Shown piece after piece: positions 6,984 to 50,022 of a DNA stretch of 64,000 bases; positions within the stretch are counted from its first letter, which is position 1; each line of letters opens with the position of its first letter. Below the pieces are notes generated by a model. The model worked only from the letters and a program-made list of their open reading frames with translations. It was not told the origin of the DNA and did not search any database. The position numbers and the translations under genes are program-made. The stretch is from Thiobacillus sp. SCUT-2 (lineage in GTDB: Bacteria > Pseudomonadota > Gammaproteobacteria > Burkholderiales > Thiobacillaceae), in NCBI RefSeq assembly GCF_035621355.1, contig NZ_CP141769.1, positions 1,798,001-1,862,000 on the forward strand, in the 5' to 3' direction.

Positions 6984-6987
6984 TTCC

Positions 6988-20371: not shown

Positions 20372-21670
20372 GTGCCAAGCCTTACTGATGGAGAGATACG
20401 CCGAGCCTTGAAGCAGGTGGAACAGACCGGCAAACAGCTCAGCCTAGTCGATGGCGAGGGTCATGGCACCGGCCGTCTGGTCCTGGTCATGAAGCCGATG
20501 CCCACACGGGTCACCGCGGACTGGATGGCGCAGCAGTGGCGCGATCAGAAGCGCCTCAAGAAGAAGCTGGGCTCGTATCCGTCGATGTCACTCAGCAAGG
20601 CGCGCGAAATTTTCACCCGCGACTTCGCAGACATGATCCAGAAAGGTCGCAGCATCAAAATCGCCGGCGATACGCGTCCCGGCACCGTAGCCGATCTCTT
20701 CGAAGCCTATGTTGCTCACCTGAAGGCTTCAGAAAAATCGTCGTGGAAGGAAGCGGAAAAGGGCCTCAACAAAATTGCCGACACGCTTGGCCGCAACCGC
20801 CCGGCACGGGACATCGAGCCCGACGAGGTCACGGATATCATTCGGCCGATCTATGAACGCGGCAAGCGCTCGATGGCCGATCACGTCCGCAGCTACATCC
20901 GATCCGCCTATAGCTGGGGCTTGAAGTCCGAGCACGACTACCGCACCGCGTCGCAACGGCGCTTCCGCCTAGTCTACAACCCGGCGGCCGGCATTCCCAC
21001 TGAGCCCAAGAAGGTCGGAACCCGCTGGCTGGACGAAGAGGAGTTCTTGCGCCTCTATCGCTGGCTCGAATGCCCCGACGCGCCGGTCCACCCGCCCTAC
21101 ACCCGGGCCGTCCGCATCCTCATGCTGACCGGACAGCGGGTCGAGGAGATCGCGCGCCTCCATATCGACCAGTGGGACGCGAAGGAGCGGATCGTCGACT
21201 GGTCAAAAACCAAGAACGGTAAGCCCCACGCCATTCCCGTCCCCGACATCGCGGCCGAATTGATCGAGTCGATCAAGCCCAACGCCCATGGCTGGTTTTT
21301 CCCTTCCGCGACCGATCCGACCAAGCCGGTCAGCCACGGCACGCTTTACTCATTCATGTGGCGTCAGCGCGAACGCGAAGTAATCCCCGTCGTGACAAAT
21401 CGCGATCTTCGCAGGACCTGGAAGACGCTCGCCGGCCAAGCCGGCCTTTCGAAGGAAATTCGCGACCGCATACAGAATCACACGCTGCAGGACGTCAGCT
21501 CGAAGAGCTACGATCGCTGGAGCTACATGCCGGAGAAGCGGGCCGCCATGAAAAAGTGGAATGCGTTCGTGCAAGCGATGCTGAGCAAGAAGCGTTCCAA
21601 GCTGACGAAAAAGAAGCATGCGCCCAACGTCTATGATGCCGCAGCCGAAACCACGCAGCAAGCTGCCTGA
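20372..21670 (+). CDS. int: Tyrosine integrase of the ICE
   Basis: The product has 432 residues from a GTG start with GGGAGAG eight bases upstream. An N-terminal arm-binding domain (PSLTDGEIRRALKQ) and a core-binding helical region lead to the catalytic domain. R256 is in TGQRVEEIARL, R347 in RDLRRT, H370 in QNHTLQ, and the nucleophile is Y380 in SYDRW. The residue that is normally His in H-x-x-R is Arg344 here. The enzyme would insert and excise the ICE. The YhcG-like gene follows after two bases. Confidence 0.9.
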   Translation: MPSLTDGEIRRALKQVEQTGKQLSLVDGEGHGTGRLVLVMKPMPTRVTADWMAQQWRDQKRLKKKLGSYPSMSLSKAREIFTRDFADMIQKGRSIKIAGDTRPGTVADLFEAYVAHLKASEKSSWKEAEKGLNKIADTLGRNRPARDIEPDEVTDIIRPIYERGKRSMADHVRSYIRSAYSWGLKSEHDYRTASQRRFRLVYNPAAGIPTEPKKVGTRWLDEEEFLRLYRWLECPDAPVHPPYTRAVRILMLTGQRVEEIARLHIDQWDAKERIVDWSKTKNGKPHAIPVPDIAAELIESIKPNAHGWFFPSATDPTKPVSHGTLYSFMWRQREREVIPVVTNRDLRRTWKTLAGQAGLSKEIRDRIQNHTLQDVSSKSYDRWSYMPEKRAAMKKWNAFVQAMLSKKRSKLTKKKHAPNVYDAAAETTQQAA

Positions 21671-23476: not shown

Positions 23477-23633
23477 CCAGCCTGTTAGACGGCAAAGGCT
23501 TCCCGCAGATAATCGTTCTTCATGGTCATGGGGGAATGCCTTCCCCCTGGCCGGCGCCAACGTCGCCGGCACACCCCCTTCTGCGGGGAGATCCCCGCAA
23601 CGCCCCCGTAGAGTGAGAGTGCGGACCGGGTTT

Positions 23634-23683
23634 TCCGTGACGGGTTGAGGACTGGAGGAGAGGCCTCCGGCGCCCGTCGCGGA
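23634..23683 (+). promoter_or_regulatory. Type I nested stem-loop leader, copy 1 (before ardC)
   Basis: The outer stem TCCGTGACGGG (23634) pairs with CCCGTCGCGGA (23673). The inner stem CTGGAGG (23652) pairs with CCTCCGG (23664) around AGAGG. It ends eight bases before the ardC start. Three further GC hairpins lie between 23530 and 23605. Three more copies of this architecture occur in the ICE. Confidence 0.6.
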
Positions 23684-23691
23684 GAACCGCG

Positions 23692-24648
23692 ATGTCCAGA
23701 CACACTGCTCATGCGCGCGCCGGCGCGGACCGGGCGAACCTCTATGACGAGATCACCAACAAGATCATTACGGAGCTGGAGGCTGGGCGCGTGCCTTGGG
23801 TCCAGCCTTGGGGGACCGCGGCGGCGAAGGCGCCACTCGCCTTGCCGCACAACGCCTCGACCCGCCGGCAGTACTCTGGGATCAACGTGCTGATCCTCTG
23901 GGGGTCGGTGATCGAGCACGGCTTCTCGGCTCAGAGCTGGCTGACCTTCCGCCAAGCGCTTTCGCTTGGCGGCAATGTGCGCAAAGGCGAGCACGGCACC
24001 ACCGTCGTCTTTGCCGATCGCTTTGTGCCCGATGATGAGAAAAAGCGGGCGCGAGAGGTGGGTGAAGAAGCTCAGGCGATCCCGTTCTTGAAGCGCTTCA
24101 CCGTCTTCAACCTCGCGCAATGCGAAGGCCTTCCCGAGGATCTCGCCGCCGTCGCACCGCCACCCGAGCCCGGGCTGATCGAACCCACCGTCGAAGCGCT
24201 GATCAAAGCGACGGCGATCAACTTCCGCATCGGCGGTAGTCGCGCCTTTTACGCGCCCGACGCGGACTACGTGCAGGTCCCGCCGCCGCAAGCCTATTTC
24301 GAGGCGATCAATTGGCATCGAACGGCTCTGCACGAACTCGGTCATGCGAGCGGCCATGTTTCGCGGCTCAACCGCGATCTTTCCGGTTCGTTCGGCTCGA
24401 AGAAGTACGCCTTCGAGGAATTGATCGCTGAGATGAACGCGGCGTTCTGCTGCGCCTCGCTCGGCATCGTACCGACCGTGCGCCATGCCGACTACATCGG
24501 CTCATGGCTCGAGGTGCTGCGCGAAGACAATCGCGCGATTGTTCGTGCCGCGTCGCAGGCGAGCAAGGCCGCCGATTATCTGCTCGGCTTCCTGCCGGAG
24601 CATCAGAAGGCAGCCTCGGAACACTCCAGCGACCGGAGGGCGGCATGA
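23692..24648 (+). CDS. ardC: ArdC-like antirestriction protein with zinc-protease domain
   Basis: The product has 318 residues. The N-terminal ArdC domain (DEITNKIITELEAGRVPWVQ, then QYSGINVLIL) binds single-stranded DNA in studied members. The C-terminal domain carries HELGHASGH near residue 207 with a downstream glutamate in FEELIAEMNAA, a zincin metallopeptidase. ArdC protects incoming conjugative DNA against host restriction. It is preceded by a structured leader and its stop overlaps the next start (ATGA), so it heads a three-gene coupled operon. Confidence 0.9.
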   Translation: MSRHTAHARAGADRANLYDEITNKIITELEAGRVPWVQPWGTAAAKAPLALPHNASTRRQYSGINVLILWGSVIEHGFSAQSWLTFRQALSLGGNVRKGEHGTTVVFADRFVPDDEKKRAREVGEEAQAIPFLKRFTVFNLAQCEGLPEDLAAVAPPPEPGLIEPTVEALIKATAINFRIGGSRAFYAPDADYVQVPPPQAYFEAINWHRTALHELGHASGHVSRLNRDLSGSFGSKKYAFEELIAEMNAAFCCASLGIVPTVRHADYIGSWLEVLREDNRAIVRAASQASKAADYLLGFLPEHQKAASEHSSDRRAA

Positions 24649-25016
24649 TCCTCCTGACCCCGGACTTGCGCGAGCGTCTGCTCACCAACGGCCACCGCAG
24701 CGGCCTCGACCATGTGCCTGTCGTAAAGTTCTTCAATCCTTTGGGCATCGGCACCTGGCTCGCCACTGAGCTCGATCCTGACGGCGACACGCTGTTCGGT
24801 CTCGCCGATCTTGGCGACCCCGAACTGGGATCGTTCAGCCTCGCGGAGATGACGTCGCTGCGCTTGCCGTTCGGCATGGGCATCGAACGTGACATTCTGT
24901 TCGACGGCCTGTTCCCGCTCTCGGTCTATGCCGAGGCGGCGCGACAGGCGGGCAGCATCGTGTGCAGCGAGCGTCTGTTGCGCGCGGCCGCGGCGGCGTT
25001 GCGGGGAGAGCGATGA
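24645..25016 (+). CDS. DUF2958 family protein
   Basis: The product has 123 residues. The signature runs VVKFFNPLGIGTWLATELDPDGD, then FGLADLGDPELGSFSLAEM, then IERDILF, as in DUF2958. The family is nearly always found beside ArdC and ParB-like genes on conjugative elements; its biochemical role is unknown. The ATG overlaps the ardC stop, and its own stop overlaps the next start, so all three are coupled. Confidence 0.8.
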   Translation: MILLTPDLRERLLTNGHRSGLDHVPVVKFFNPLGIGTWLATELDPDGDTLFGLADLGDPELGSFSLAEMTSLRLPFGMGIERDILFDGLFPLSVYAEAARQAGSIVCSERLLRAAAAALRGER

Positions 25017-25795
25017 TGCGCTTCCGCCGCTGGCCACGGCCGACCCCGTTCGAGGACACCACGCGCAAGCGTGCTGCCCTCTCTCGCAAGCAGCGCCTCG
25101 AACGAGAGGCGCTGCCCCTCTTCTCCGATCAAATCGCCGTCGAGCAGCCGGCCGTCGATGCGGTCATGCACGAACGCGCCATCGATTGGATGGACGCGCA
25201 GCGCGCGCGCCGCAGAGACCGCGCGGCCCGCTGGCGTGACGTGCGCTGGCGTCTATTCGCGCTGGATGGCGCATTGCGAGCGAAAGTCCGTCGTCTTTGG
25301 CGGAACTGTCCCTATCCGGCGGACCCATCATATTTCGCCGATCTCTTGCACCAGATCGAACGCGGCCGCATCGATCCGGAGCGGCCGCCCTGGGTCTTTC
25401 ACCAAGAAATATCCGCACGGACCACGCCGAACCCAAGGCACTTCGACGAAGCGTTTCGCAAAATCGGTGCGCGCAAGGTCGGGGGCGGACCGAAGACCAC
25501 GGCCGCCGACGAACTGCTGTTCTGCGGCAATCTCGGCTCGGGGATGCTGTTTCTGCGCTCACGGGTTCGGCTCATCGACCCGAACGAGAGCTTCTACACC
25601 TGCTCCAATCACCGCCTGCGTGACTCTCACGTCGGGCGCGCGGGTCACTGGGTCGATATCGAAGTGCGCGGCGAATGCTCCGATGACGATCCCGCTCTGA
25701 TCGAGCGCCTGGCGCGCGACGCCGATGCGCGGCCCGTCGTCGTCCGCCACGTCGCGGTGCTCGCGCGACGCGGCGGCGAGAACCCGCGGGCCTGA
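25013..25795 (+). CDS. ICE-associated protein of unknown function
   Basis: The product has 260 residues, starting in an ATGA overlap with the DUF2958 gene. The first 90 residues are strongly basic and helical (RRWPRPTPF, RKQRLEREALPLF). The rest is mixed and ends in HVGRAGHWVDIEVRGE and RHVAVLARR. No known domain is recognised, but its fixed place in the ardC operon suggests a role in entry or establishment of transferred DNA. Confidence 0.6.
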   Translation: MMRFRRWPRPTPFEDTTRKRAALSRKQRLEREALPLFSDQIAVEQPAVDAVMHERAIDWMDAQRARRRDRAARWRDVRWRLFALDGALRAKVRRLWRNCPYPADPSYFADLLHQIERGRIDPERPPWVFHQEISARTTPNPRHFDEAFRKIGARKVGGGPKTTAADELLFCGNLGSGMLFLRSRVRLIDPNESFYTCSNHRLRDSHVGRAGHWVDIEVRGECSDDDPALIERLARDADARPVVVRHVAVLARRGGENPRA

Positions 25796-25920
25796 CAGAC
25801 CGATCGTCATCGCCCCGATCCGCGCGGTGGAAGGCCGTCACGCAAAGCCTGATCCCCGTAAAGGCGTAGTCCCAGGTGTGCGGTTCTGCGGTCGCCTAGA
25901 GGAAGAGGGCTGCGCCGGTC

Positions 25921-25970
25921 TTCGTGACGGGTTGAAAGCCGAGAGAGAGTCTCCCGGCGCCCGTCGCGGA
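25921..25970 (+). promoter_or_regulatory. Type I nested stem-loop leader, copy 2 (before parB-like gene)
   Basis: TTCGTGACGGG (25921) pairs with CCCGTCGCGGA (25960). GCCGAGAG (25938) pairs with CTCCCGGC (25951) with one mismatch, around an AGAGT loop. The outer stem is nearly identical to copy 1, while the inner stem differs in sequence but still pairs. Confidence 0.6.
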
Positions 25971-25980
25971 GTATATCCCG

Positions 25981-28116
25981 ATGGCCAGTGCCGTTCAGAA
26001 GATCACCCTCAGCGCCTCGCGCGACATTCCCCTCAACAAGCTCATCCTCTCCCAGTCGAACGTCCGGCGCGTGAAGGCCGGTGTCTCGATCGAGGACCTC
26101 GCAGCCGACATCGCCCGCCGCGGCTGCCTGCTCCAGAGCCTCAATGTCCGGCCCGTGCTCGACACCGATGGCGCCGAGACCGGCATGTTCGAGGTGCCCG
26201 CCGGCGGCCGCCGCTTCCAGGCCCTGCAGCTTCTCGTCAAGCAGAAGCGCTTGACCAAGACTGCCCCGATCCCTTGCGTCGTCCGCGATCCCTCAACCGA
26301 GATTCTCGCCGAGGACGATTCGCTCGCTGAGAACGTCCAGCGCGTGCCGCTGCATCCGCTCGACCAGTTCCGGGCTTTCCAGACCCTGCGCGAGAAGGGT
26401 TTGTCGGATGAAGACATCGCCGCCGCCTATTTCGTCGGCGTGAACGTCGTCAAGCAGCGGCTCCGCCTCGCCGCGGTCTCCGGGAAGCTGCTCGACGTCT
26501 ATGCCGAGGATGGCATCTCGCTCGAACAGCTCATGGCGTTCACCGTGACGACCGATCACACGCGCCAGGAGCAGGTCTGGGACGCGCTTCAGCGTTCCTA
26601 TAGCCAGGAGCCGTATCAGATTCGCCGCATGCTGACGGAGAAGACGGTCCGCGCCTCCGACAAGCGCGTGCTGTTCGTCGGCATCGACGCCTACGAGAGC
26701 GCCGGAGGCATCGTGATGCGCGATCTCTTTCAGCAGGACGACGGCGGCTGGCTGGAGGATGTCGGCCTTCTCGAAACCCTGGTCACCCAGAAGCTGAAGG
26801 CCGATGCGGAGACCATCGCGGCCGAGGGCTGGAAGTGGATCGCTGTGGGAAGCGAATTTCCCTATGGCCATGACCACGGCTTGCGCCAGCTCGACGGCGT
26901 GCCGGCCGATCTCACCGACGAGGAGCGGGCCACGCGCGAGGCGCTGCGCACCGAGTACGACCAGCTCGAGGCGCAATATCAGGATGCCGACGAGTTGCCC
27001 GACGAGGTGGACCAGCGGCTCGGCGAAATCGAAACCGCGCTCGAGGCGTTCGAGACCCAGCCGCAGATCTTCGATCCGGCCGACATCGCCCGTGCCGGCG
27101 TTTTCGTGAGCATCGACCACGACGGTCAGCTCTTGGTCGATCGCGGCTATGTCCGTCCCGAGGACGAGGCGCCGGTCATCGAACCCGACCAGGAAGGCGA
27201 CGCGTCCTCCGTCGAGCAAGCTGGGACTGACACCGCCACGCCGTCAGTTCAACGCGCCATCATCACCATCGGCGGCCAATCCGAGCCGGAGGATGACGAC
27301 GATGATGTTGTGAAGCCATTGCCGGATCGGCTGGTCAGCGAGCTGACTGCCTACCGCACACTGGCGCTGCGGGATGCCGTGGCGAACAACCCGCATGTCG
27401 CGATGACGGCGCTGCTGCACAAGCTCTGCCTCGACACCTTCCAGCACACGGCAGCGGGCAATTGCCTCGAAGCATCGGTGCGGCAGGTGTATTTCTCGAT
27501 CCAGTCTGCCGACCTCAAGGACAGCCCGTCCGCCAAAGCGGTCGCGGAACGGCACGACGCCTGGAAGGCCGACATGCCGAAGGACGAGGCTGCGCTGTGG
27601 GATTGGCTCGCCGCACTCGACGACGCCAGCCGGGGCGCATTGCTGGCGCACTGCGTCTCCTTCGGCGTCAACGCCCTCTATGAAAAGGGCGACCGCTACG
27701 GCGGCCCCGGCGTCTCCGTTCACGGCGTCCAGCGCCGTCTCGTCCAGGCCGACCGGCTCGCGCGCGCCGTCGGGCTCGACATGGTCGATGCGGGCTGGCG
27801 GCCGACGGTCGACAACTATCTCGGCCGGGTCACCAAGCCTCGCATCCTGGAAGCGGTGCGGGAGGCGAAGGGCGAGCAATCGGCGCAGCTCATCGATCAT
27901 CTGAAGAAGGCGGACATGGCGAAGGAGGCCGAACGGCTGCTCGACGGCACCGGCTGGCTGCCCGAGCCGCTCCGGGGTTCCGAGGCGATGGGCACCGACG
28001 CGACTGATGCCGACGCAGACGGCGACGAGGAAGCATTGCCCGCCTTTCTCGCCGACGACGAGGACGGCGCCAGCGAGGACGAGGCCGACGAGCCGGCCGT
28101 GATCGCTGCCGAGTAA
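25981..28116 (+). CDS. Large ParB/RepB-like nuclease-domain protein
   Basis: The product has 711 residues, much longer than chromosomal ParB (about 300). Residues 10-110 are the ParB N-domain (IPLNKLILSQSNVRR, then EVPAGGRRFQAL, then ENVQRVPLHPLDQ). Residues 120-170 contain the helix-turn-helix (KGLSDEDIAAAYFVGVNVVKQRL). A long charged middle and an acidic tail (EDEADEPAVIAAE) follow. These ICE ParB-like proteins are thought to bind DNA and help maintenance; a CTP-dependent sliding-clamp activity is possible but not shown. Its transcript has a structured leader. Confidence 0.8.
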   Translation: MASAVQKITLSASRDIPLNKLILSQSNVRRVKAGVSIEDLAADIARRGCLLQSLNVRPVLDTDGAETGMFEVPAGGRRFQALQLLVKQKRLTKTAPIPCVVRDPSTEILAEDDSLAENVQRVPLHPLDQFRAFQTLREKGLSDEDIAAAYFVGVNVVKQRLRLAAVSGKLLDVYAEDGISLEQLMAFTVTTDHTRQEQVWDALQRSYSQEPYQIRRMLTEKTVRASDKRVLFVGIDAYESAGGIVMRDLFQQDDGGWLEDVGLLETLVTQKLKADAETIAAEGWKWIAVGSEFPYGHDHGLRQLDGVPADLTDEERATREALRTEYDQLEAQYQDADELPDEVDQRLGEIETALEAFETQPQIFDPADIARAGVFVSIDHDGQLLVDRGYVRPEDEAPVIEPDQEGDASSVEQAGTDTATPSVQRAIITIGGQSEPEDDDDDVVKPLPDRLVSELTAYRTLALRDAVANNPHVAMTALLHKLCLDTFQHTAAGNCLEASVRQVYFSIQSADLKDSPSAKAVAERHDAWKADMPKDEAALWDWLAALDDASRGALLAHCVSFGVNALYEKGDRYGGPGVSVHGVQRRLVQADRLARAVGLDMVDAGWRPTVDNYLGRVTKPRILEAVREAKGEQSAQLIDHLKKADMAKEAERLLDGTGWLPEPLRGSEAMGTDATDADADGDEEALPAFLADDEDGASEDEADEPAVIAAE

Positions 28117-28172
28117 CGACCACGAGCGGGGCGGCACGAGCCGTCCCGCTCATCTCCCTGTCCACCTCACTC

Positions 28173-28194
28173 CGCCCGGCCATCGCGCCGGGCG
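28173..28194 (+). repeat. Hairpin-plus-RBS unit 1
   Basis: GCCCGGC (28174) and GCCGGGC (28187) form a hairpin with loop CATCGC. TTTCAGGAGG follows within ten bases, ahead of the DUF6878 gene. Related units occur at 29384, 29854 and 31668. Confidence 0.6.
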
Positions 28195-28215
28195 CTTCCG
28201 TTTCAGGAGGATTCC

Positions 28216-28695
28216 ATGACCAGCACGTCCGACATCACGCCCGAACCCAATCCGCCACTCTCGGACTGGGAGCTGAAATCTCAGACCCACGCCAAGCTCG
28301 AAACCGAGGTGTTCAAACAGAACAAGGCGGCACTCCTTAATGCACTGGCCTTGGCTGGCATCACCGCTGTCATCGTCAGCTTTGACGGCTACGGCGATTC
28401 CGGCCAGATCGAGAATGTCGAGGTCCGGATCGGTGACGATGAGGCTCGTATGCCCGCCGGCACGATCGAAGTCGGCGAGGCCCTATGGGGCGAGGTCGAA
28501 TTGAAGCGCTCTGCGGTCAACATCAGCGCCGCCGTCGAGAGCCTCGCCTATGACGTTCTCGAACAGACCCATTCGGGCTGGGAGGACAATGACGGTGCTT
28601 ATGGCGACATCGTCTTCGACGTAGCCGAGCGGACGATCACGCTCGATTACAACGAGCGCTACACCGCATCCGAAAACTACACCCACACATTCTGA
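28216..28695 (+). CDS. DUF6878 family protein
   Basis: The product has 159 residues after a perfect AGGAGG. Typical features are NKAALLNALALAGITAVIVSFDGYGDSGQI and a C-terminal ITLDYNERY block, as in DUF6878 proteins of conjugative elements. It is acidic and probably soluble. It opens a run of about eleven small genes of unknown role that accompany this ICE backbone. Confidence 0.65.
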   Translation: MTSTSDITPEPNPPLSDWELKSQTHAKLETEVFKQNKAALLNALALAGITAVIVSFDGYGDSGQIENVEVRIGDDEARMPAGTIEVGEALWGEVELKRSAVNISAAVESLAYDVLEQTHSGWEDNDGAYGDIVFDVAERTITLDYNERYTASENYTHTF

Positions 28696-28705
28696 GGAGG
28701 CTGCA

Positions 28706-29119
28706 ATGGGACATTGCTATCACCATGCCCTCTCTTCGGTGAAGAAGTGGGGCGGTGCCGCGGAGGACTACCTGCCGCTGCACCAATGGTTCGACGAGTC
28801 GAAGGCGATCACCGCCGACTTCCGGCATCGGGCGCTGCGGCATCATGCCGAGGGCATCTTCATGCTGGAACGCTTCTTCGGCCCCGTGATCACCATCTCT
28901 ACCGGCCGCCAGGTGCCGGTGCGCCTGATCGGCGAACAGCACGTCATCGAAGATCTCGGCTTCATCCCGAGTTTCGCCGATTGGGTCCGCTGCATCCGCC
29001 CGCAACCTTGGATGGGCCGCGCGCAACCGATCCACAAGCTGGTCGATCCGTTCGCGGTGACATCCGACGATCACGAACCCGCCACTGCGCCTTCGGTGCG
29101 GCGCACCGCTCAAGCGTGA
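28706..29119 (+). CDS. DUF6915 family protein
   Basis: The product has 137 residues, with GAGGAGG before the ATG. The N-terminus GHCYHHALSSVKKWGG is histidine-rich, and it is followed by HQWFDESKAITADFRHRALRHHAEG and FGPVITIS, the pattern of DUF6915. The conserved histidines could bind metal. Ten bases separate it from the preceding gene. Confidence 0.65.
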   Translation: MGHCYHHALSSVKKWGGAAEDYLPLHQWFDESKAITADFRHRALRHHAEGIFMLERFFGPVITISTGRQVPVRLIGEQHVIEDLGFIPSFADWVRCIRPQPWMGRAQPIHKLVDPFAVTSDDHEPATAPSVRRTAQA

Positions 29120-29129
29120 GGAGGACGTC

Positions 29130-29357
29130 ATGAAGATTCAAGCCATCCTCGAATTCGACCTTGAGGACGAAGACGGCCACACCATTGCGGATCGCCGCGA
29201 ATATGTCTGGGCCGCCGAAGCGACCGACGACGCCATTCGCTCGCGCCTCATGGGTGCGGGCTTCCTCGACGCCGACACCCTGATCGGAACCTACACGCTC
29301 AACGTCCGTGTCGTCGACGGCGAGATCGACGATCCCGAGCCGTCTGAACGGTCCTAG
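29130..29357 (+). CDS. Small ICE protein
   Basis: The product has 75 residues, with GAGGAGG upstream. It is very acidic (DLEDEDGHTIADRREYVWAAEA), the kind of composition seen in DNA mimics and in small interaction proteins. No known family is recognised. Ten bases follow the previous stop. Confidence 0.55.
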   Translation: MKIQAILEFDLEDEDGHTIADRREYVWAAEATDDAIRSRLMGAGFLDADTLIGTYTLNVRVVDGEIDDPEPSERS

Positions 29358-29383
29358 CCCCAACCACTCTCAATCCGCTCGCA

Positions 29384-29406
29384 AAAGCCCGGTCACGCCG
29401 GGCTTT
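29384..29406 (+). repeat. Hairpin-plus-RBS unit 2
   Basis: AAAGCCCGG (29384) pairs with CCGGGCTTT (29398), loop TCACG. AAGGAGG starts 11 bases later. The stem with trailing T residues also looks like an intrinsic terminator. Confidence 0.6.
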
Positions 29407-29427
29407 CTGCATTTCAAGGAGGTCATC

Positions 29428-29826
29428 ATGGCCACATTCACCATCGAAACCACCTACCGGCTGCCGGTCTTCCGGCAGCGCAGCTACGAAGCTGACACCC
29501 TCGCAGCCGCCTGTCGTCTCGCCATCGAAGACGACGACTGGTCGGATCAGAAGGAAGATTACGAATCCTCCGGCGAGACCTATGTCACCGGCGTATGGCC
29601 TGGTGACACACAGCCCTACAGCGTGCCGCCGCTGGCGATCCCCGCACAGTTCGGCGAGAGCCTCCAACGCAAGTCCGAGCACTTCGAGGTTCTGCTTGGG
29701 CTCCTCAAAGTCTTCGCCCACGCGCCCGAAGGTGGCCCGGCCGACGCTCAGTATTGGCGTGAGCGTGCTGACGCGGCGATCGCAAAAGCCGAAGCCATCC
29801 TCGCAGACGCGAGAGACCCTGACTGA
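29428..29826 (+). CDS. ICE-associated protein of unknown function
   Basis: The start at 29428 follows AAGGAGG. The product has 132 residues: a beta-rich N-terminus (MATFTIETTYRLPVFRQRSY) with an acidic stretch (IEDDDWSDQKEDYESS), then a helical C-terminus. It is conserved in position in similar elements, but no function is known. Confidence 0.55.
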   Translation: MATFTIETTYRLPVFRQRSYEADTLAAACRLAIEDDDWSDQKEDYESSGETYVTGVWPGDTQPYSVPPLAIPAQFGESLQRKSEHFEVLLGLLKVFAHAPEGGPADAQYWRERADAAIAKAEAILADARDPD

Positions 29827-29853
29827 CTGCACCCTCCAAATCCCTTCCACCCG

Positions 29854-29871
29854 CCCGGCCCTCGCGCCGGG
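29854..29871 (+). repeat. Hairpin-plus-RBS unit 3
   Basis: CCCGGC (29854) pairs with GCCGGG (29866). The tail TTTGTTGTTTCTGGAG leads into the next gene. It is the least perfect of the four units. Confidence 0.5.
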
Positions 29872-29894
29872 TTTGTTGTTTCTGGAGACACCCC

Positions 29895-30449
29895 ATGGCC
29901 GACTACTTCGAACAAACCGTGATCCAGCAGACCATTCCCGATGCGGACATGACGCCGCTCGAACGGCTGCTTTTGTTGCGCATCTTCGGCTGCGAGCGCG
30001 ATCACGATGGCTGGTACTTCTTCGCCGAGGAAAGCCCCTCGACCATGATCTTTGCGACGCGCGCCGAGCTTGAAGCGGCGCTCGGTGCTGCACCAGACCC
30101 CGACAGCACCGCGCATCGTCATGTCGTCGAGCAGCTCGCCGAGCTTGACCCCCACGACACAGAGGTCGAGCTCGACCTGAGCGGCACGTCCTGGGAATTC
30201 TTCTTTCAGGACATCGTCAAGCGCTCGAAGACACTGCGCTATCTCAGCGTCGTCGCGGCCTTCACCTGCAGCAAGATGCGCCCGGATGGTTTCGGCGGCA
30301 TGGCGATCCTCATCACGCCGGACACGATCATCGGCAAATCGACCAACGATCTCATCGAGGACTTTCTCGCCGAAGCTGGCCTCGATGACTCGGATGAGGC
30401 TGGCCCGAAGCGATCCCATCCAACGCCGCCGCCCGACCAGGGAGAGTGA
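29895..30449 (+). CDS. ICE-associated protein of unknown function
   Basis: The product has 184 residues, preceded by TGGAG. It is acidic with an N-terminal DMTPLERLLLLRIFGCERD and a central HDTEVELDLSGTSWEFFFQDI block. A proline-rich tail ends it. No domain is recognised. Confidence 0.55.
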   Translation: MADYFEQTVIQQTIPDADMTPLERLLLLRIFGCERDHDGWYFFAEESPSTMIFATRAELEAALGAAPDPDSTAHRHVVEQLAELDPHDTEVELDLSGTSWEFFFQDIVKRSKTLRYLSVVAAFTCSKMRPDGFGGMAILITPDTIIGKSTNDLIEDFLAEAGLDDSDEAGPKRSHPTPPPDQGE

Positions 30450-30463
30450 GAGGCAGGCCGAGA

Positions 30464-30514
30464 CGCGGGTGAGCCCAGAGGTCGGAGGAGAGCGCGGCCC
30501 TGGGCTTGCCCGCG
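30464..30514 (+). promoter_or_regulatory. Type I nested stem-loop leader, copy 3
   Basis: CGCGGG (30464) pairs with CCCGCG (30509), and AGCCCAG (30472) pairs with CTGGGCT (30500). The loop contains GGAGGAGAG. It ends 22 bases before the next start. Confidence 0.5.
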
Positions 30515-30536
30515 ATCCGCTCCCGGAGTCCCGACC

Positions 30537-30908
30537 ATGTCCAAGACCATAGCCGCCTTCGATTTCCGGCGCCGTGTCTGCTACGACGCACCGGCGAAGC
30601 GCGCGTTTCACAGCCACGCCTGCCGCCAGCTCAAGCGGGTTGCCGCCGCCCTCGGTCTGTCGCCCGGCGCTTACGATCTGCGCTCCAACCAGGGCGGCAT
30701 CGCTGTTTCCGGCGAAGTCACACTGCACGCCGACCGCCTCTATGTGCAGGCCTGCCAGCCGGCCGCCGGCCACGACACCGGCGTCCTCTTCCGTACCTGC
30801 CAGGGACGGAAGGACTACCACGGCGGTCCCAACAACTTCGCCTCCCTCGACCTTCTCAATCGTCCGCAGGACCTCGCGGCCCGGATTCGGGAGGTATGCC
30901 GTGTTTGA
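30537..30908 (+). CDS. ICE-associated protein of unknown function
   Basis: The product has 123 residues. The basic N-terminal half (FDFRRRVCYDAPAKRAFHSH, then CRQLKRVAAALGL) is followed by a compact beta region (GGIAVSGEVTLHADRLYVQA). Behind a structured leader, it heads a coupled group: the next gene begins eight bases before its stop. Function unknown. Confidence 0.55.
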   Translation: MSKTIAAFDFRRRVCYDAPAKRAFHSHACRQLKRVAAALGLSPGAYDLRSNQGGIAVSGEVTLHADRLYVQACQPAAGHDTGVLFRTCQGRKDYHGGPNNFASLDLLNRPQDLAARIREVCRV

Positions 30909-31374
30909 TCGTCTCAAAGCAGCATGCCCGCGTGTCGCCGACCGCATCGCCCATCGGTGGTTTCGCGCCCGCTATCACTTGGCGCGTCTCTCGCGCGCCT
31001 GGGCGTATTTCCGCGATCGTCTCGACGCAGACGAGGCTCAGCGGATCATGCTCGATTGCGAGTATCCGGCCGGCTGGCATCCGCTTCTCGTGCTGACCGT
31101 CGAGGACGCGCTCGAACAGGCGCGCGAGATCTTCGCCGATCACCCGGACCTGCCGCGTCTCATCAACGACGGCTGCGCGCGCGTCGCCAGCAAATGGGAG
31201 TCCTACAACGACGAGCTCTATGAGGCTCGGCGCTGGGCGACCGACCTTGCTGCTGACTACGCCGTCGCAGAAGGCGTCATCCTCACACGCCTCGAAGCCG
31301 TCGGCGATCACGCGGCGTCCGACACCGAGGGCGACGATCACACAGCGGTTTCGAAGGAGGGAGGCGCGCCATGA
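30901..31374 (+). CDS. ICE-associated protein of unknown function
   Basis: The product has 157 residues from a GTG start at 30901 that overlaps the previous gene. It is rich in Arg and aromatic residues at the start (RIAHRWFRARYHLARLSRAW) and helical throughout, with an acidic C-terminus. No family is recognised. Its stop overlaps the next start (ATGA). Confidence 0.5.
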   Translation: MFDRLKAACPRVADRIAHRWFRARYHLARLSRAWAYFRDRLDADEAQRIMLDCEYPAGWHPLLVLTVEDALEQAREIFADHPDLPRLINDGCARVASKWESYNDELYEARRWATDLAADYAVAEGVILTRLEAVGDHAASDTEGDDHTAVSKEGGAP

Positions 31375-31643
31375 CCGAGTACATCGTCAAGATCGGCTTC
31401 TGGCTGCGCGCCTATGACGGCCTCACCGTCGACGCCGAATCGGATGCCGACGCCATCGACAAGGCCAAGGCCGCCGCAAAGCGCGCGATGGAGTCGGGCG
31501 CCCATCCTGAACACATCGACATCGAGGAACGGCGAGAAGGCGTGATTGCTTTCATCGACCGCGTTGCCCCGGATGGCCGCCATCCCGTGATCGAGGACGT
31601 CGAATTCGACGACGACCGCATTCACGACGGCCCAACCGGCTGA
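31371..31643 (+). CDS. Small ICE protein
   Basis: The product has 90 residues, ATGA-coupled to the gene before it. TEYIVKIGFWLRAYDGLTV and the acidic C-terminus (EDVEFDDDRIHDG) suggest a small ferredoxin-like fold similar to other one-domain proteins of this cluster. Function unknown. Confidence 0.5.
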   Translation: MTEYIVKIGFWLRAYDGLTVDAESDADAIDKAKAAAKRAMESGAHPEHIDIEERREGVIAFIDRVAPDGRHPVIEDVEFDDDRIHDGPTG

Positions 31644-31667
31644 TCTCCCAATCACCGCAATTCCAGA

Positions 31668-31691
31668 AAGCCCGGCCTTCGCGCCGGGCTT
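31668..31691 (+). repeat. Hairpin-plus-RBS unit 4
   Basis: AAGCCCGGC (31668) pairs with GCCGGGCTT (31683) around CTTCGC. TTTCAGGAGG follows as in unit 1. Confidence 0.6.
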
Positions 31692-31711
31692 CGTCGTTTC
31701 AGGAGGCCATC

Positions 31712-32137
31712 ATGGCTGATTTCTTCACGCACTTCTCATGCGTGCTCGATGTCGACACACCCGACAACGCGGCGCGCGCCCTCGACCTCTACAATACGCT
31801 GATGGAGGAGAACGCGCAGGAAGACCCACCTGCGGACGCCTTTCTTCTTTCCATACAGCCCGAGCATGGTGGAAGCCGGCTCTGGATCCATGATGACGTC
31901 ACCGGCGATCCGCAAACGGTCATCACGTTTGTCCTTCGGTGTGCGGAAGCCTTCGACCTTAAGGGCCGCTGGGGCTTCCAATGGGCCAACACATGCTCGC
32001 GGCCGCGCATCGACGCCTTCGGTGGCGGCGCCCATGTTCTCGATCTCGCAACCCGTAAGACGATCGCTTGGACCGACACAAGCGGCTGGCTCGCCCGGAC
32101 CTTGTCATCCGGCCGGGGAAAGCGAGGCCCGCGATGA
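31712..32137 (+). CDS. ICE-associated protein of unknown function
   Basis: The product has 141 residues after TCAGGAGG. It is mixed alpha/beta, with FSCVLDVDTPDNAARALDLY at the start and RWGFQWANTCSRPR in the middle. It resembles small conserved proteins of Trb-type ICEs, with no assigned role. It ends in an ATGA overlap with the next gene. Confidence 0.55.
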   Translation: MADFFTHFSCVLDVDTPDNAARALDLYNTLMEENAQEDPPADAFLLSIQPEHGGSRLWIHDDVTGDPQTVITFVLRCAEAFDLKGRWGFQWANTCSRPRIDAFGGGAHVLDLATRKTIAWTDTSGWLARTLSSGRGKRGPR

Positions 32138-32376
32138 GCATTCCCGATCACGCGCGCGCCAACTTTCAGACGCTGCTCCGTGCCGCAGCCGACGGTAACC
32201 TCGCTCTTATGGAATGCGCCGATGCTGCGACCGGCGAGACCCGCTACGTCATCTGCGCTGTCGGGCGCGACAGCACGGATTTCCTGTTCGCACCCTTCGG
32301 CCACCTGGCCGACGGCAATCCCTACGACGCCTATGTACCGCCGGCTCCAACCCTGCCGGACGAGCAAGCCTCCTGA
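32134..32376 (+). CDS. DUF6117-like protein
   Basis: The product has 80 residues. SIPDHARANFQTLLRAAADG, then YVICAVGRD and FGHLADGNPYDAY follow the pattern remembered for DUF6117. It is a short soluble protein, coupled to the preceding gene. Function unknown. Confidence 0.6.
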   Translation: MSIPDHARANFQTLLRAAADGNLALMECADAATGETRYVICAVGRDSTDFLFAPFGHLADGNPYDAYVPPAPTLPDEQAS

Positions 32377-32521
32377 CGCCCTCGCGCCGTGACTTGTCTG
32401 GACGCGGCAGCCCTCCGGTCAACGGGCAAGCCGTTCCCGCATCGTGCGCGATGCGTGACCGCCGGGCTTTGACCGCATCCGGTCGCCAGTCCGCCGCAAC
32501 GGGATCAGGAGGCGATCGGTC

Positions 32522-32830
32522 ATGTGCAGGGTTCTCAACAAGCATCACGCCGGCGTGCCGGCGGGCGCCGTCTATATCGGGCGCGGTTCGAAGTGGGGCA
32601 ATCCGTTCCGGATCGGCCCGGACGGCGACCGCGCCGCTGTCATCGCGAAGTACGAGCGCTGGCTCGCCGATCAGCATCATCTCTTGCGCGCACTCGACGA
32701 GCTTCGCGGTTGCGACTTGGTCTGCTTCTGCACACCGCGGCCGTGCCACGGCGATCTGTTGCTGCGGCTCGCGAACGCGACGCGCGAGGCGCGGATCGCG
32801 TGGTGGCGCGGCGTGAAGGCAGCCGCGTGA
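32522..32830 (+). CDS. DUF4326 family protein
   Basis: The product has 102 residues after AGGAGG. VYIGRGSKWGNPF, an internal YERWLADQHHLL helix, and LVCFCTPRPCHGDLLL are the DUF4326 hallmarks, including cysteines that may bind metal. Such proteins occur in phages and conjugative elements; their function is unknown. The 145 bases before it have no gene. Confidence 0.8.
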   Translation: MCRVLNKHHAGVPAGAVYIGRGSKWGNPFRIGPDGDRAAVIAKYERWLADQHHLLRALDELRGCDLVCFCTPRPCHGDLLLRLANATREARIAWWRGVKAAA

Positions 32831-32849
32831 CGAGAGGGAGAGGCGGGCC

Positions 32850-32907
32850 GGGACGGGTTTGAGCCGGTGCGGTCCAGAGAGAGCGCCGGCCGGCTCGCCC
32901 GTGTCCC
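32850..32907 (+). promoter_or_regulatory. Type I nested stem-loop leader, copy 4
   Basis: GGGACGGG (32850) pairs with CCCG-TG-TCCC (32898) with a small bulge, and GAGCCGG (32861) pairs with CCGGCTC (32890). The loop contains AGAGAGAG. It ends about 20 bases before the giant methyltransferase-helicase gene. Confidence 0.5.
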
Positions 32908-32928
32908 GCTCTCCCGAGGTCCCTTCTC

Positions 32929-35900
32929 ATGTCGCATCCTTCTGCCGCTGCGGCCGCACCAGCAGCCGAACCGATCCCGTGCGCCCGCACGGATGCTCCC
33001 GTGCCACGCCTTGCCGAGGCCGCGCGGCTTCTTCTCCCCCATCTCGAGCAGGGACACCGCGTCGACGCCGCCGTCCTGCGCGCCGCGATGGAGCAGGCCT
33101 TCGGCGCTTCCGACACGTCCGGCGCGTGGGACTGGAAGACCGCCTATGACGCCTGCGAGGCGGCGACGGTCCTGTTTCTCCGCAAATACGGCAAGCCGCT
33201 TTTCCGCAAGGCCGGCTCCATGGCTGCGACGCTGCCTCAGCTCGCGAAGGTCGCGAGCCTTCTTCCCACCCATACACGGCGGTCCGAGGAGAGCCAGGCG
33301 CTTCAGCAATTCTCGACGCCGATCCCGCTCGGCCTCGCCGCGCTATGCGCCTCTGCCATAGCGCCCGGCGACCGCGTGCTGGAGCCGTCAGCCGGCACCG
33401 GCCTCCTGGCCATTCTCGCGGAGACCGCCGGCGGCGCGCTCGTCCTTAACGAGCTGGCCGAGACCCAGGCCGATCTGCTCGCCCACCTCTTTCCCGATCT
33501 TTACGTGACGCGCTTCGACGCGGCGCAGATCGACGATCACCTCGATCGCGCGATCACGCCGACCGTGGTGTTGATGAACCCACCGTTCTCGGCGATGGCG
33601 AACGTGAGCGGCAGGATGGCCGATGCCGCCTATCGCCATGTCGCTTCGGCGCTGGCGCGTCTCGCCGACGGCGGCAGGCTTGTCGCGATCACCGGCGCGA
33701 ACTTCGGCCCCGAGACGCCATCCTGGCGCGATGCCTTCGCCCGCCTGCAGGAGCGCGGCACCGTCGTCTTCACCGCGGCGATCGACGGATCGGTCTATGC
33801 CAAGCACGGCACGACCGTCGAGACGCGCGTTACCGTGATCGATAAGGCGCCCGCGTCCGATCCGGCGCAGTTTCCCGCGTCCGCCGGGATCGCGCCGGAC
33901 GTCGCCACGCTGGTCGGCTGGATCGCCGAACATGTCCCGCCGCGTCGCCCAGTCGCCGGACTGCTCGCTGCGCCGGGCGCCGGCAATGTCGCCACGCCTC
34001 GAACCGTTCGCGGCTATCTCGCGCGCGCTGCCTCGCGGCAGCAGGCAACAGCGATTGCCGAGCCCGAGGGCGTCGAGTTGTCTTATGAGACCGTCGAATG
34101 GACACCGCCCGAGGGCGTCCGTCTCACGGACGCGCTTTATGAAGAATACGGATTGCAGTCGATCCGTATTCCTGGCTCTCTGGGGCATCCGACCAAGCTC
34201 GTGCAGTCGGCGGCGATGGCGTCGGTCGCGCCGCCCAAGCCCTCCTATCGTCCGCATCTCCCCACAGCTATTGTCAGCGACGGCCTGCTGTCCGACGCGC
34301 AGCTTGAAAGCATCATCTATGCCGGCGAAGCGCATACGGACTTTCTGGCGGGCGCATGGAGTGTCGATGAGACCTTCGATCTCGTCACCGCCGCGCGCGA
34401 CGACGCTGAGAGCGCCGTACGCTTCCGTCGCGGCTGGTTTCTCGGCGACGGCACCGGCGCGGGCAAGGGCCGCCAGGTCGCCGGCATCCTGCTCGACAAC
34501 TGGCTGAAGGGCCGCCGTCGCGCCTTGTGGATCAGCAAGTCCGACAAGCTGATCGAGGACGCGCAGCGCGACTGGTCGGCCCTCGGCATGGAGCGACTGC
34601 TGGTTACGCCGCTCTCGCGCTTCCGCCAAGGCACGCCGATCCGCCTCGCGGAAGGCATCCTATTTACGACCTATGCCACGCTGCGCACCGATGAGCGCGG
34701 CGAGAAGCTTTCGCGCGTCCGGCAGATCGTCGAATGGTTGGGCTCCGACTTCGATGGAGTGATCATTTTCGACGAGAGCCATGCGATGCAGAACGCCGTC
34801 GGTGGCAAGGGCGAGCGTGGCGACCAGGCGCCGTCGCAACAGGGACGCGCAGGCTTGCGTCTTCAGCACGCCCTGCCGAACGCCCGCATCGTCTATGTCT
34901 CGGCGACGGGCGCCACGACCGTCCACAACCTCGCTTACGCCCAGCGCCTCGGGCTGTGCGGCGGCGAGGACTTTCCGTTCGCCACGCGCGCCGAATTCGT
35001 CGAGGCGATCGAGGATGGCGGCGTCGCGGCGATGGAAGTGCTGGCGCGCGACCTCAAGGCGCTCGGCCTCTATGCAGCGCGTTCGCTGTCCTACGAGGGT
35101 GTCGAGTACGAACTGGTCGAACACCGGCTCACGCCCGAACAGATCCGCATCTACGACGCCTATGCGGGCGCGTTCTCGATCATCCATAACAATCTCGACG
35201 CCGCAATGCAGGCGGCCAACATCACCGGCGAGACGGGCACGCTGAACGCCCAGGCCAAGGCCGCCGCGCGCTCGGCCTTCGAGAGCGCCAAGCAGCGCTT
35301 CTTCGGCCATCTGCTCACGTCGATGAAGACGCCGTCGCTCATCGGCGCGATCGAGCGCGATCTCGACGCCGGCCACGCCGCCGTCATCCAGATCGTCTCG
35401 ACGGGCGAAGCCTTGATGGAGCGCCGGCTCGCGGAAATCCCAACCGAGGACTGGGGCGACGTCCAGGTCGATATCACGCCGCGCGAGTACGTGCTCGATT
35501 ACCTCGCCCATTCCTTTCCGGTGCAGCTCTACGAGCCGTTCACCGACTCGGAAGGCAATCTCTCGTCGCGGCCGGTCTATCGCGACGGCCAGCCGGTCGA
35601 GAGCCGCGAAGCCGTCGCGCGTCGTGACCGCCTGATCGAGAAGCTCGCCTCGCTTCCGCCCGTGCCCGGCGCGCTCGACCAGATCGTCCAGCGCTTCGGC
35701 ACCGACATCGTCGCCGAAGTCACCGGCCGATCGCGCCGCGTGATCCGCAAGGGCGACCGCCTGATGGTCGAGAACCGTGCGGCGTCGGCAAACCTAGCCG
35801 AGACCGCCGCTTTCATGGATGACACCAAGCGCATCCTCGTCTTCAGCGACGCCGGCGGCACCGGACGGAGCTATCACGCCGAGCTGTCGGCGCGGAATCG

Positions 35901-37266
35901 CAGGCTGCGTGTTCATTATCTCCTTGAGCCCGGATGGAAGGCGGACGCCGCCATCCAGGGCCTGGGCCGCACGAACCGCACCAACCAGGCGCAGCCGCCG
36001 CTGTTCCGGCCGATTGCGACCGACGTGAAGGCGGAGAAGCGCTTTCTCTCCACCATCGCGCGCCGCCTCGACACGCTGGGCGCCATCACGCGCGGCCAGC
36101 GCCAAACCGGCGGCCAGGGGTTATTCAGACCCGAGGATAATCTCGAAAGCCACTACGGCCGCGATGCACTCCGCCAGCTCTACATGTTGCTGGTGCGCGG
36201 CAAGGTCGAAGGCTGCTCGCTTCAGACCTTCGAGGCGTCGACCGGACTGAAGCTGATGGATGCCAACGGTATCAAGGACGAGCTGCCGCCGATCACGACC
36301 TTCCTCAACAGAATGCTGGCGCTGACTATCGACTTGCAGAACGTGCTCTTCACCGCGTTCGAGCAATTGCTCACCGCCCGCATCGAGGGCGCGATCGCAT
36401 CCGGCACTTACGACGCCGGACTGGAGACGTTGCGCGCCGAGAGCTTCGTCGTCGCCGACCGAAGCGTCATCTATAGCCATCCGGCCACGGGCGCGGAGAC
36501 CCGGCTGCTCACCATCACCGAACGCCGCCGCAACCAGCCCGTGACGCTGGACGAGGCGCTCGATCGTCTCTCCGATCCGCGCGCGGCCCTGCTCGTCAAT
36601 GAGCGGTCGGGCAGAGCCGCCGTTCAAGTCCCGGCGCCGAGCCTCATGCTCGACGACGGCGAGATCGAACGCCGCGTCCGTCTGGTCCGGCCGATGGAAC
36701 ATCACAGTCTTCCGCTGAAGGTGATGGCGGAAAGCCATTGGGCCGAAGCCGATCGTAAGAGCTTCGCCTCGGCCTGGCAGACCGAACTCGGCGAAGTGCC
36801 CGAATTCACCGACAGCACCATCCATGTCGTTGCGGGCTTGCTCCTGCCGATCTGGAAGCGGCTGCCGAACGAGTCGACGCGCGTCTATCGGCTTCAGACC
36901 GATGCCGGCGAGCGCATCATCGGCCGCAAGGTCTCGCCCGCCTGGGTCGCGACCGCCCTCGCAGCCGGCGCTCCGACATTGACGCCTGACACCGCCTTCG
37001 CCGCCCTCATGGACGGCCGGACCGTCCTCGATCTCGCCGAAGGCCTCCAGCTCCGTCGCGTGCGGGTCATGGGCGCCAACCGCATTGAACTGTCGGGCTT
37101 CAACGACACGATGCGCGACCGGCTGAAAGCCTACGGCCTCTTCCACGAGATCATCTCCTGGAAACTGCGCATGTTCGTTCCGACCGACGCGAGCGGGATC
37201 GCGATACTGGCGAAGGTGCTCGACCGCTATCCGGTCGAGCGCGTCGGCGAGCGCGAGGCCGCGTGA
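32929..37266 (+). CDS. Methyltransferase fused to strawberry-notch-like helicase
   Basis: The product has 1445 residues. Near 150 is a SAM-binding motif (LEPSAGTGLLAILAE) and near 210 the catalytic NPPF, giving an adenine-methyltransferase domain. From about 500 a helicase follows: GDGTGAGKGRQ (Walker A), IIFDESHAM (DESH box), YVSATGATT (motif III) and, near 1010, GLGRTNRTNQAQPP. The helicase belongs to the strawberry-notch group. Homologues on conjugative elements probably modify and remodel incoming DNA, guarding it from restriction; this is inference. It is coupled to the following toprim gene (TGATG). Confidence 0.85.
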   Translation: MSHPSAAAAAPAAEPIPCARTDAPVPRLAEAARLLLPHLEQGHRVDAAVLRAAMEQAFGASDTSGAWDWKTAYDACEAATVLFLRKYGKPLFRKAGSMAATLPQLAKVASLLPTHTRRSEESQALQQFSTPIPLGLAALCASAIAPGDRVLEPSAGTGLLAILAETAGGALVLNELAETQADLLAHLFPDLYVTRFDAAQIDDHLDRAITPTVVLMNPPFSAMANVSGRMADAAYRHVASALARLADGGRLVAITGANFGPETPSWRDAFARLQERGTVVFTAAIDGSVYAKHGTTVETRVTVIDKAPASDPAQFPASAGIAPDVATLVGWIAEHVPPRRPVAGLLAAPGAGNVATPRTVRGYLARAASRQQATAIAEPEGVELSYETVEWTPPEGVRLTDALYEEYGLQSIRIPGSLGHPTKLVQSAAMASVAPPKPSYRPHLPTAIVSDGLLSDAQLESIIYAGEAHTDFLAGAWSVDETFDLVTAARDDAESAVRFRRGWFLGDGTGAGKGRQVAGILLDNWLKGRRRALWISKSDKLIEDAQRDWSALGMERLLVTPLSRFRQGTPIRLAEGILFTTYATLRTDERGEKLSRVRQIVEWLGSDFDGVIIFDESHAMQNAVGGKGERGDQAPSQQGRAGLRLQHALPNARIVYVSATGATTVHNLAYAQRLGLCGGEDFPFATRAEFVEAIEDGGVAAMEVLARDLKALGLYAARSLSYEGVEYELVEHRLTPEQIRIYDAYAGAFSIIHNNLDAAMQAANITGETGTLNAQAKAAARSAFESAKQRFFGHLLTSMKTPSLIGAIERDLDAGHAAVIQIVSTGEALMERRLAEIPTEDWGDVQVDITPREYVLDYLAHSFPVQLYEPFTDSEGNLSSRPVYRDGQPVESREAVARRDRLIEKLASLPPVPGALDQIVQRFGTDIVAEVTGRSRRVIRKGDRLMVENRAASANLAETAAFMDDTKRILVFSDAGGTGRSYHAELSARNRRLRVHYLLEPGWKADAAIQGLGRTNRTNQAQPPLFRPIATDVKAEKRFLSTIARRLDTLGAITRGQRQTGGQGLFRPEDNLESHYGRDALRQLYMLLVRGKVEGCSLQTFEASTGLKLMDANGIKDELPPITTFLNRMLALTIDLQNVLFTAFEQLLTARIEGAIASGTYDAGLETLRAESFVVADRSVIYSHPATGAETRLLTITERRRNQPVTLDEALDRLSDPRAALLVNERSGRAAVQVPAPSLMLDDGEIERRVRLVRPMEHHSLPLKVMAESHWAEADRKSFASAWQTELGEVPEFTDSTIHVVAGLLLPIWKRLPNESTRVYRLQTDAGERIIGRKVSPAWVATALAAGAPTLTPDTAFAALMDGRTVLDLAEGLQLRRVRVMGANRIELSGFNDTMRDRLKAYGLFHEIISWKLRMFVPTDASGIAILAKVLDRYPVERVGEREAA

Positions 37267-49771: not shown

Positions 49772-50022
49772 GCGATCGTCGTTGGACCAGGGTGAAGGAC
49801 CGTTCGATCGAAGGATTGCGAGGAGCGGAGCATCGGCGCAGGCAACCCACCAACGGACGGCAAGGGAAAAGGCCGGCCTTCGGCGCGGCTTATGTGGTTG
49901 GTTGGATTGAACAATTTGCCCATATCCTCGAAGCATCCTGCTGGCGCTTCCATCGATTTGTCCAACGAAATCAATCCTCGAAGCGCCGTCGCGCCGCCGA
50001 ATCCTTGGATTTCGGCCGATGA
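49768..50022 (+). CDS. Small basic protein between transglycosylase and relaxase
   Basis: The product has 84 residues and is very basic (RRWTRVKDRSIEGLRGAEHRR, SKRRRAAESLD). ATGA overlaps at both ends, with the transglycosylase and with the relaxase, support its being a gene. It may be an accessory relaxosome protein. The candidate nic site lies within its 3' half, so its codons are constrained twice. It could also be a spurious frame over oriT. Confidence 0.4.
   Translation: MSDRRWTRVKDRSIEGLRGAEHRRRQPTNGRQGKRPAFGAAYVVGWIEQFAHILEASCWRFHRFVQRNQSSKRRRAAESLDFGR
49921..49950 (+). other. Candidate oriT nic region
   Basis: AAGCATCCTGCTGG contains ATCCTG followed by C, the core found at IncP/MOBP nic sites (YATCCTG|Y). 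A near repeat TCCTCGAAGC occurs at 49925 and 49975. It is about 80 bases upstream of the relaxase start, the usual place. The nick would be between 49940 and 49941. Confidence 0.4.

Follow-up and report, generated by a model that had tools for sequence, protein, structure and literature searches.

A stretch of 64,000 nt from Thiobacillus sp. SCUT-2 (NZ_CP141769.1, positions 1,798,001 to 1,862,000 of the forward strand; hereafter the window) contains an integrative conjugative element (ICE), four genes of which are each preceded by a structured leader. The leader is a unit of about 90 nt that recurs in front of the same genes in related elements. Its two stems covary, and it ends at the Shine-Dalgarno sequence (SD) and start codon of the gene that it precedes. 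As its fold is conserved on the mRNA-sense strand only, we take it to be an RNA that acts in cis and discard the reading as a single-strand promoter. Judging from comparative sequence data, we put the probability at roughly 0.6 that this RNA exerts post-transcriptional control over an establishment regulon.

Four leaders of one plan

An earlier note on this DNA had described four stem-loop leaders. All four are present at the positions claimed, and their folds are more stable than those of dinucleotide-shuffled sequences, with z-scores of -5.5, -2.3, -2.9 and -2.4 computed on stretches of 91-108 nt that include flanks. Their beginnings needed correction: the 5' limit of each unit lies about 20-25 nt upstream of the coordinate first given, at a AGAGNNAGAG box (the AGAG box below). 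A search of both strands of the 64 kb finds this pattern in exactly four places, one per leader (23610, 25898, 30443 and 32833). The number alone is not unusual, being reached in 10 of 100 shuffles; what is unusual is the positions.

From 5' to 3', the shared plan consists of the AGAGNNAGAG box, a spacer, the outer stem, an unpaired TTGAG-like stretch that bulges on the 5' side only, an inner stem whose sequence varies, a GAGAG loop, the 3' arms, the SD and the start codon. Two subtypes occur in the window. In type I, found before ardC and a ParB-like gene, the outer stem pairs GTGACGGG with CCCGTCGC. Type II, found before a gene of 123 aa and a helicase gene, adds a 3' CTCTCC able to pair with the box or the loop; according to RNAalifold, the pairing of CTCTCC with the loop is the best fold of the opposite strand. 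The leaders and the genes behind them are as follows.

23610..23691, + strand: leader 1, type I, before ardC; AGAG box at 23610-23619, loop AGAGG at 23659-23663
23637-23644 with 23673-23682, + strand: outer stem of leader 1, GTGACGGG with CCCGTCGCGG
23652-23658 with 23664-23670, + strand: inner stem of leader 1
23692..24648, + strand: ardC, anti-restriction, with ArdcN and MPTase-PolyVal domains
25898..25980, + strand: leader 2, type I, before the ParB-like gene; AGAG box at 25898-25907, GAG loop at 25947-25949
25924-25931 with 25960-25969, and about 25938-25946 with 25950-25958, + strand: outer and inner stems of leader 2
25981..28116, + strand: ParB-like protein gene, 711 aa, homologue of the plasmid F leading-region ParB-like protein
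30442..30536, + strand: leader 3, type II, before the 123-aa gene
30537..30908, + strand: 123-aa gene
32832..32928, + strand: leader 4, type II, before the helicase gene; begins 1 nt past the stop codon of a DUF4326 gene (32522-32830)
32929..37266, + strand: Strawberry-notch-type helicase, 1445 aa, with AAA_34 and Helicase_C_4 domains; relatives are annotated as methyltransferase/helicase

In leader 1 the SD (GGAG) shares bases with the 3' end of the outer stem, and the AGAG box of leader 3 contains the stop codon of the upstream open reading frame (ORF; 29895-30449). The product of the 123-aa gene has no match in Pfam or NCBIfam. A further hairpin lies at 23679-23694, between the type I leader and ardC, where CGCGGAGANCCGCR competes with the outer stem.

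We built one model for each subtype, R1 (type II) from 33 helicase-locus leaders plus the window copy and R2 (type I) from 31 ParB and 24 ardC leaders of the loci described below plus the two window leaders. In the window, R2 recovers 23604-23694 (E 9e-25) and 25892-25983 (E 6e-23), both of them training members, and R1 recovers 32832-32931 (E 3e-28, a training member) and 30442-30539 (E 7e-11), which lay outside its training set. R2 also matches leader 3 (30437-30539, E 0.0085), and a chance match on the minus strand at 36468 is comparable (E 0.015).

Conservation of the leaders in related elements

Scanning public genomes with the helicase protein yielded 595 confirmed places, the best 80 of which were taken as loci; more exist. 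These loci are nearly all alphaproteobacterial, one exception being a Thauera metagenome-assembled genome. The same block of about 97 nt stands upstream of the helicase gene at every locus, where R1 scores at least 77 bits, and R2 gives 136 matches of at least 63 bits in the 80 loci, every one on the strand of the helicase gene. Leaders missing from homologous genes of other ICEs, the outcome that the earlier note had held to count against its proposal, were not what we saw: a leader ends at the start codon of 80/80 helicase, 71/71 ParB and 47/48 ardC genes. ParB and ardC orthologs were considered at E <=1e-8 with the query starting within residue 40. Two ParB rows (L057 and L068, start at the locus edge) and two ardC rows were dropped, L096 for the same reason and L053 because its tblastn match begins at residue 17, where no start codon was found; the R2 leader of L053, at 2192-2281, precedes a frame of 30 aa.

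The remaining 18 type I matches lie elsewhere, and 14 of them were verified before a frame of 398 aa. In many elements, the gene upstream of the ParB-like gene belongs to this 398-aa family instead of being ardC, and it has the same leader (L088, 4222-5415, and 13 other loci). Its product, a candidate establishment or anti-restriction protein, has no match in Pfam or NCBIfam, and an assignment to DUF932 found no support in either database or when the protein was compared with the DUF932 protein of F. In all, R1 or R2 matches at start codons serve genes for ArdC, the ParB-like protein, the helicase, the 123-aa and 398-aa proteins, ArdB (Antirestrict), RadC (L231), AlpA and DUF6878 proteins, as well as unnamed proteins of 90, 128, 150, 172 and 333 aa. 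For 81 of the 91 listed matches, the start codon selected coincides with the final codon of the model; six matches of this list have only a frame below 40 aa behind them, and two have none. On the plasmid pMLb of Mesorhizobium japonicum, a leader precedes each of the annotated ardC, parB-like and helicase genes; on pCHQ1 of Sphingobium indicum UT26, leaders precede the zincin, ParB-like, 333-aa and helicase genes.

The unpaired elements are conserved as well. Among distinct leaders, the strict AGAGNNAGAG box is found in 67/76 of the helicase, 63/67 of the ParB and 41/45 of the ardC set, and the GAGAG-type loop motif in 74/76, 64/67 and 42/45, respectively. The additional hairpin CGCGGAGANCCGCR over the SD is peculiar to ardC leaders (41/48, as against 0/72 for ParB and 0/81 for helicase). 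Concerted evolution of the leaders within one element was looked for in 48 elements and found in none, ardC-helicase pairs being even less alike than shuffled pairs.

The earlier note had also suggested that the genes might be needed at entry, and their relationships fit this suggestion. Over almost its whole length, the window ParB-like protein is homologous to its counterpart from the plasmid F leading region (29%, E 1e-48), encoded between ssb and psiB (L271, 9539-11497), and an ArdB encoded behind a leader resembles the F antirestriction protein (31%, E 2e-14). Given these homologies, the leader gene set looks like a leading-region, or establishment, regulon, and the ParB-like family is, by homology, an establishment gene family common to very different elements. 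ArdC of R388 is required in the recipient, according to PMC7213743.

Covariation in both stems

The covariation claimed from the window copies holds when many sequences are compared. In an alignment of 57 type I leaders, 97.9% of the cells in the stems are paired, and 13 of 16 pairs show a double change, against a shuffled mean of 4.5; none of 500 shuffles was as good. When the partner is shifted by 1-3 columns, pairing falls to 37-47%. For type II, double changes occur in 13 of 17 pairs among 77 distinct leaders (shuffled mean 6.0; 0/500 shuffles), in an alignment (A3; 68 loci, 81 matches) that was fitted to R1 and so leans towards the structure. One highly divergent helicase leader (L254, 1501-1596) has the inner stem TCAGGCC/GGCCTGA, which pairs though both arms depart from the consensus.

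We also applied a null model evolved along a tree, by a script of our own in the manner of R-scape rather than R-scape itself. The 197 type I leaders, with the weak matches L232, L233 and L227 1378 removed beforehand, gave 189 distinct sequences and 156 under 93% identity. In this set, the top three of 3828 column pairs all fall within the structure, with E values of 0.0001, 0.0027 and 0.023 when only pairs within the structure are considered and of 0.02, 0.65 and 5.5 over all pairs. Both stems are supported by covariation beyond shuffles and phylogeny, and this support is weak in single ortholog sets.

The strand that folds

A hairpin that is active on one strand tolerates G·U pairs there, the complements of which are A·C mismatches, so that the ratio of G·T to A·C cells indicates the strand. 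On the plus strand, these counts are 181:7 (alignment A2), 259:7 (ParB), 108:3 (ardC), 206:20 (helicase) and 477:36 (the 156 type I leaders), in pairs chosen by RNAalifold, which are biased to G·U over A·C. Folding of the opposite strand is the fairer control, and here the consensus energies for the plus and minus strands are -24.6 versus -2.2 kcal/mol (A2), -28.1 versus -17.3 (ardC), -16.2 versus -5.4 (helicase) and -23.5 versus 0.0 (156 type I). With DNA parameters applied to single leaders, the plus strand is the more stable in 72/72, 48/48 and 72/81 leaders of three sets.

These results bear on the likeness to Frpo/ssi of F and ColIb-P9, which are described in PMC9849209 and PMC11541004 as single-strand promoters, made of DNA, that fold on the transferred template strand and rebuild -35 and -10 boxes. 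Like the leaders, these stem-loops stand before leading-region genes, including anti-restriction and ParB-like genes, in several copies per element; unlike Frpo, which folds as DNA on the template strand, the leader has its fold on the sense strand, directly adjoining the SD. As a yardstick we folded two F copies (the repeat before ssb and a second copy, called Frpo by place and mutual likeness); both favour the template strand, at -98.7 versus -90.9 and -102.6 versus -92.2 (n = 2). The folding calculations thus indicate that what folds is RNA of the sense strand; DNA of that strand is the less likely alternative. The earlier note had left open an undescribed cis-regulatory RNA or a single-strand promoter. 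Its first half is supported by the covariation, the sense-strand fold, the constant position next to the SD and start codon of many different genes, and the lack of Rfam matches. The second half is not, because the template strand is where a promoter for these genes would have to fold, and there the consensus fold is lost; in addition, a scan of 20-39 kb for promoters of the sigma-70 type, the only type that it covers, placed its one site outside the leaders.

Proposed role and alternative explanations

The leader would act on the mRNA, on either translation initiation or stability, since it touches the SD, often starts at most 40 nt past an upstream ORF and has no conserved promoter upstream. 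The short distance applies to 47 of 202 leaders (6/48 ardC, 23/72 ParB, 1/1 small gene and 17/81 helicase), counting upstream ORFs of at least 80 aa, not all of which are proven genes. For the promoter, no conserved element at a fixed distance was seen by eye upstream of 23 ardC and 20 ParB leaders. In type I, the ground state is likely closed to ribosomes because the outer stem reaches into the SD; the computed accessibility of the SD is 0.11 and 0.21 in the whole leader versus 0.37 and 0.50 when only 45 nt are folded. As the purine boxes are conserved and, in type I, have nothing to pair with, they may be recognised by a trans-acting factor that would set the regulon as a whole. Judging by the kind of genes, we would guess that these are kept low in a settled host and made on entry, a form of zygotic induction.

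Several results weigh against this reading. The tree-based test over all column pairs found one significant pair in the ardC ortholog set and none in the ParB or helicase sets, and a free MAFFT alignment of mixed type II leaders (126 leaders, 117 distinct, 101 used) gave no consensus fold on either strand. One ardC homologue (39%, locus L123), counted as the miss above and excluded from the ardC alignments, has no leader. No reader of the purine boxes was found. In helicase leaders, the whole leader raises SD accessibility (0.51 versus 0.26), so masking is not family-wide; and leaderless genes of the window have SDs of equally low accessibility (0.03-0.40 in 10 controls, two of which are not start codons). 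We therefore rejected common SD masking as the mechanism of the family, which fails in the helicase leaders. Decoy or standby pairing with the 16S tail was likewise rejected: the boxes pair no better than shuffled ones (-9.3 versus -10.2, -7.3 versus -8.3 and -10.0 versus -9.9, with assumed 16S tails).

Among the alternatives, a site for RNase III or another processing enzyme survives best, though we consider it unlikely. In the early region of phage T7, hairpin cleavage separates and stabilises operon mRNAs, and the leaders have the long paired stems and the location at gene borders, often just past the upstream ORF, that such a site would have; processing needs neither conserved unpaired boxes nor a fixed distance to the SD, however. 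Somewhat less likely again is a put-type RNA antiterminator, in which the nascent hairpin would modify RNA polymerase for read-through of terminators in the cluster. Hairpins with T-rich stretches do lie between the small genes of the cluster (28173 and 29853), with long genes downstream, but terminator-like sites are not in excess in the 20-39 kb region (15 versus 12.3 in shuffles), and the constant place at the SD is left unexplained. That all boxes share one short purine sequence would suit a target of an antisense small RNA whose CUCUC loops pair with them; CTCTYNCTCTC sites, however, are at chance level in the window, to which this search was confined (10 versus 11.4), and the two exact ones are leaders read backwards, which makes this idea improbable. 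The least credible alternative is an Frpo-type DNA promoter in the entering strand, used by host RNA polymerase before second-strand synthesis: it would explain the kind of genes, the hairpin before each and their orientation towards the relaxase gene, as leading-region genes point to oriT (oriT itself was not located), but the fold is conserved on the non-template strand, DNA stability favours the plus strand whereas the F copies favour the template strand, positions right after upstream genes and at the SD are unsuited to a promoter, and a sigma-70-type scan of 20-39 kb returned one site only, at 23486-23513, outside the leaders.

Returning to the cis-acting RNA, a wider picture would make it the RNA counterpart of the Frpo strategy: one modular, box-read RNA switch that would silence the establishment regulon (anti-restriction, ParB-like and helicase genes) in the settled host and release it at translation soon after entry, across alphaproteobacterial ICEs and plasmids. 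We offer this picture tentatively, thinking it likelier to fail than to hold as a whole.

Relation to known RNA motifs

No Rfam family matches in the window, nor in 19 leader loci at E 1, and no description of the leader was found in the open PubMed Central (PMC) literature, which omits most subscription papers and all preprints. The STAXI motif (RF01728), according to PMC2864571, is a tandem pseudoknot of Enterobacteriales for which RNA versus single-stranded DNA is debated. It resembles the leaders in being a repeated structured motif near DNA-handling and antirestriction genes, and it differs in architecture and host group, the leaders of the window and the 19 loci having no RF01728 match. 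The radC RNA motif has a gene context of the same flavour as the leader genes, and one leader precedes a radC gene (L231). This motif (RF01754) is listed in PMC2864571 as a candidate cis-regulatory RNA of Proteobacteria. When 12 genomes were searched with its model, 11 of which carry leaders outside the window, no match exceeded the cut-off and five weak ones appeared; two of the leader-bearing controls likewise matched only below the cut-off. Riboswitches and RNA thermometers include translational leaders that hide the SD, which type I resembles, as its outer stem reaches the SD; helicase leaders differ, leaving the SD open.

Distribution and surroundings of the element

Type I leaders (R2, E <=0.01) occur in 36 of 387 sampled alphaproteobacterial genomes, the three weakest of which are doubtful (E 5e-5 to 0.008), no gene having been found behind the match by script. 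Type II leaders (R1, E 0.001) occur in 18 of 374 genomes. In the window's own class, a leader was found in 3 of 274 genomes, own genome included; of the other two, one match is weak (25.7 bits) and one, of 61 bits, is not followed by a long frame. The leader is absent from nine loci of the window's own order and class that have distant ParB homologues, two of them holding gene fragments only. The best score outside the clear matches is 21.7 bits in 16 leader-bearing genomes and 15.7 bits in the window's own genome. On plasmids, the helicase leader plus the start of its gene retrieves 221 records by blastn, in not all of which the leader was confirmed. As the leader is almost missing from the window's own class, and relatives of the element are mainly alphaproteobacterial, the element seems to be in a host outside its usual range.

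The region is assigned to an ICE by an integrase at 20372-21670 and, at 50-58 kb, by a relaxase candidate, a coupling protein and a TrbE-like protein. The orientation of the leader genes is towards the relaxase candidate, which lies outside the leader region:

50019..51770, + strand: relaxase candidate, DUF3363, Relaxase domain under its cut-off

GC-rich hairpins with T-rich tails are found at 28173, 29853 and other small-gene borders of 28.1-31.7 kb. At 3550-10819, on the minus strand, a gene for an N6-methylase protein (987 aa) adjoins one for a DEAD helicase (1169 aa), and the two may form a defence system next to the element's integrase end.

Implications

In our judgement, little is settled about how conjugative elements other than the F and IncI plasmids time the products that they make first in a new host. 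The leader-bearing genes are probably those that mobile elements need on entry into a new cell. The leader alone would mark genes of the establishment type, and through it several proteins of unknown function become candidate establishment proteins. Being small, modular and carried by pCHQ1 and pMLb, it makes the idea directly testable.

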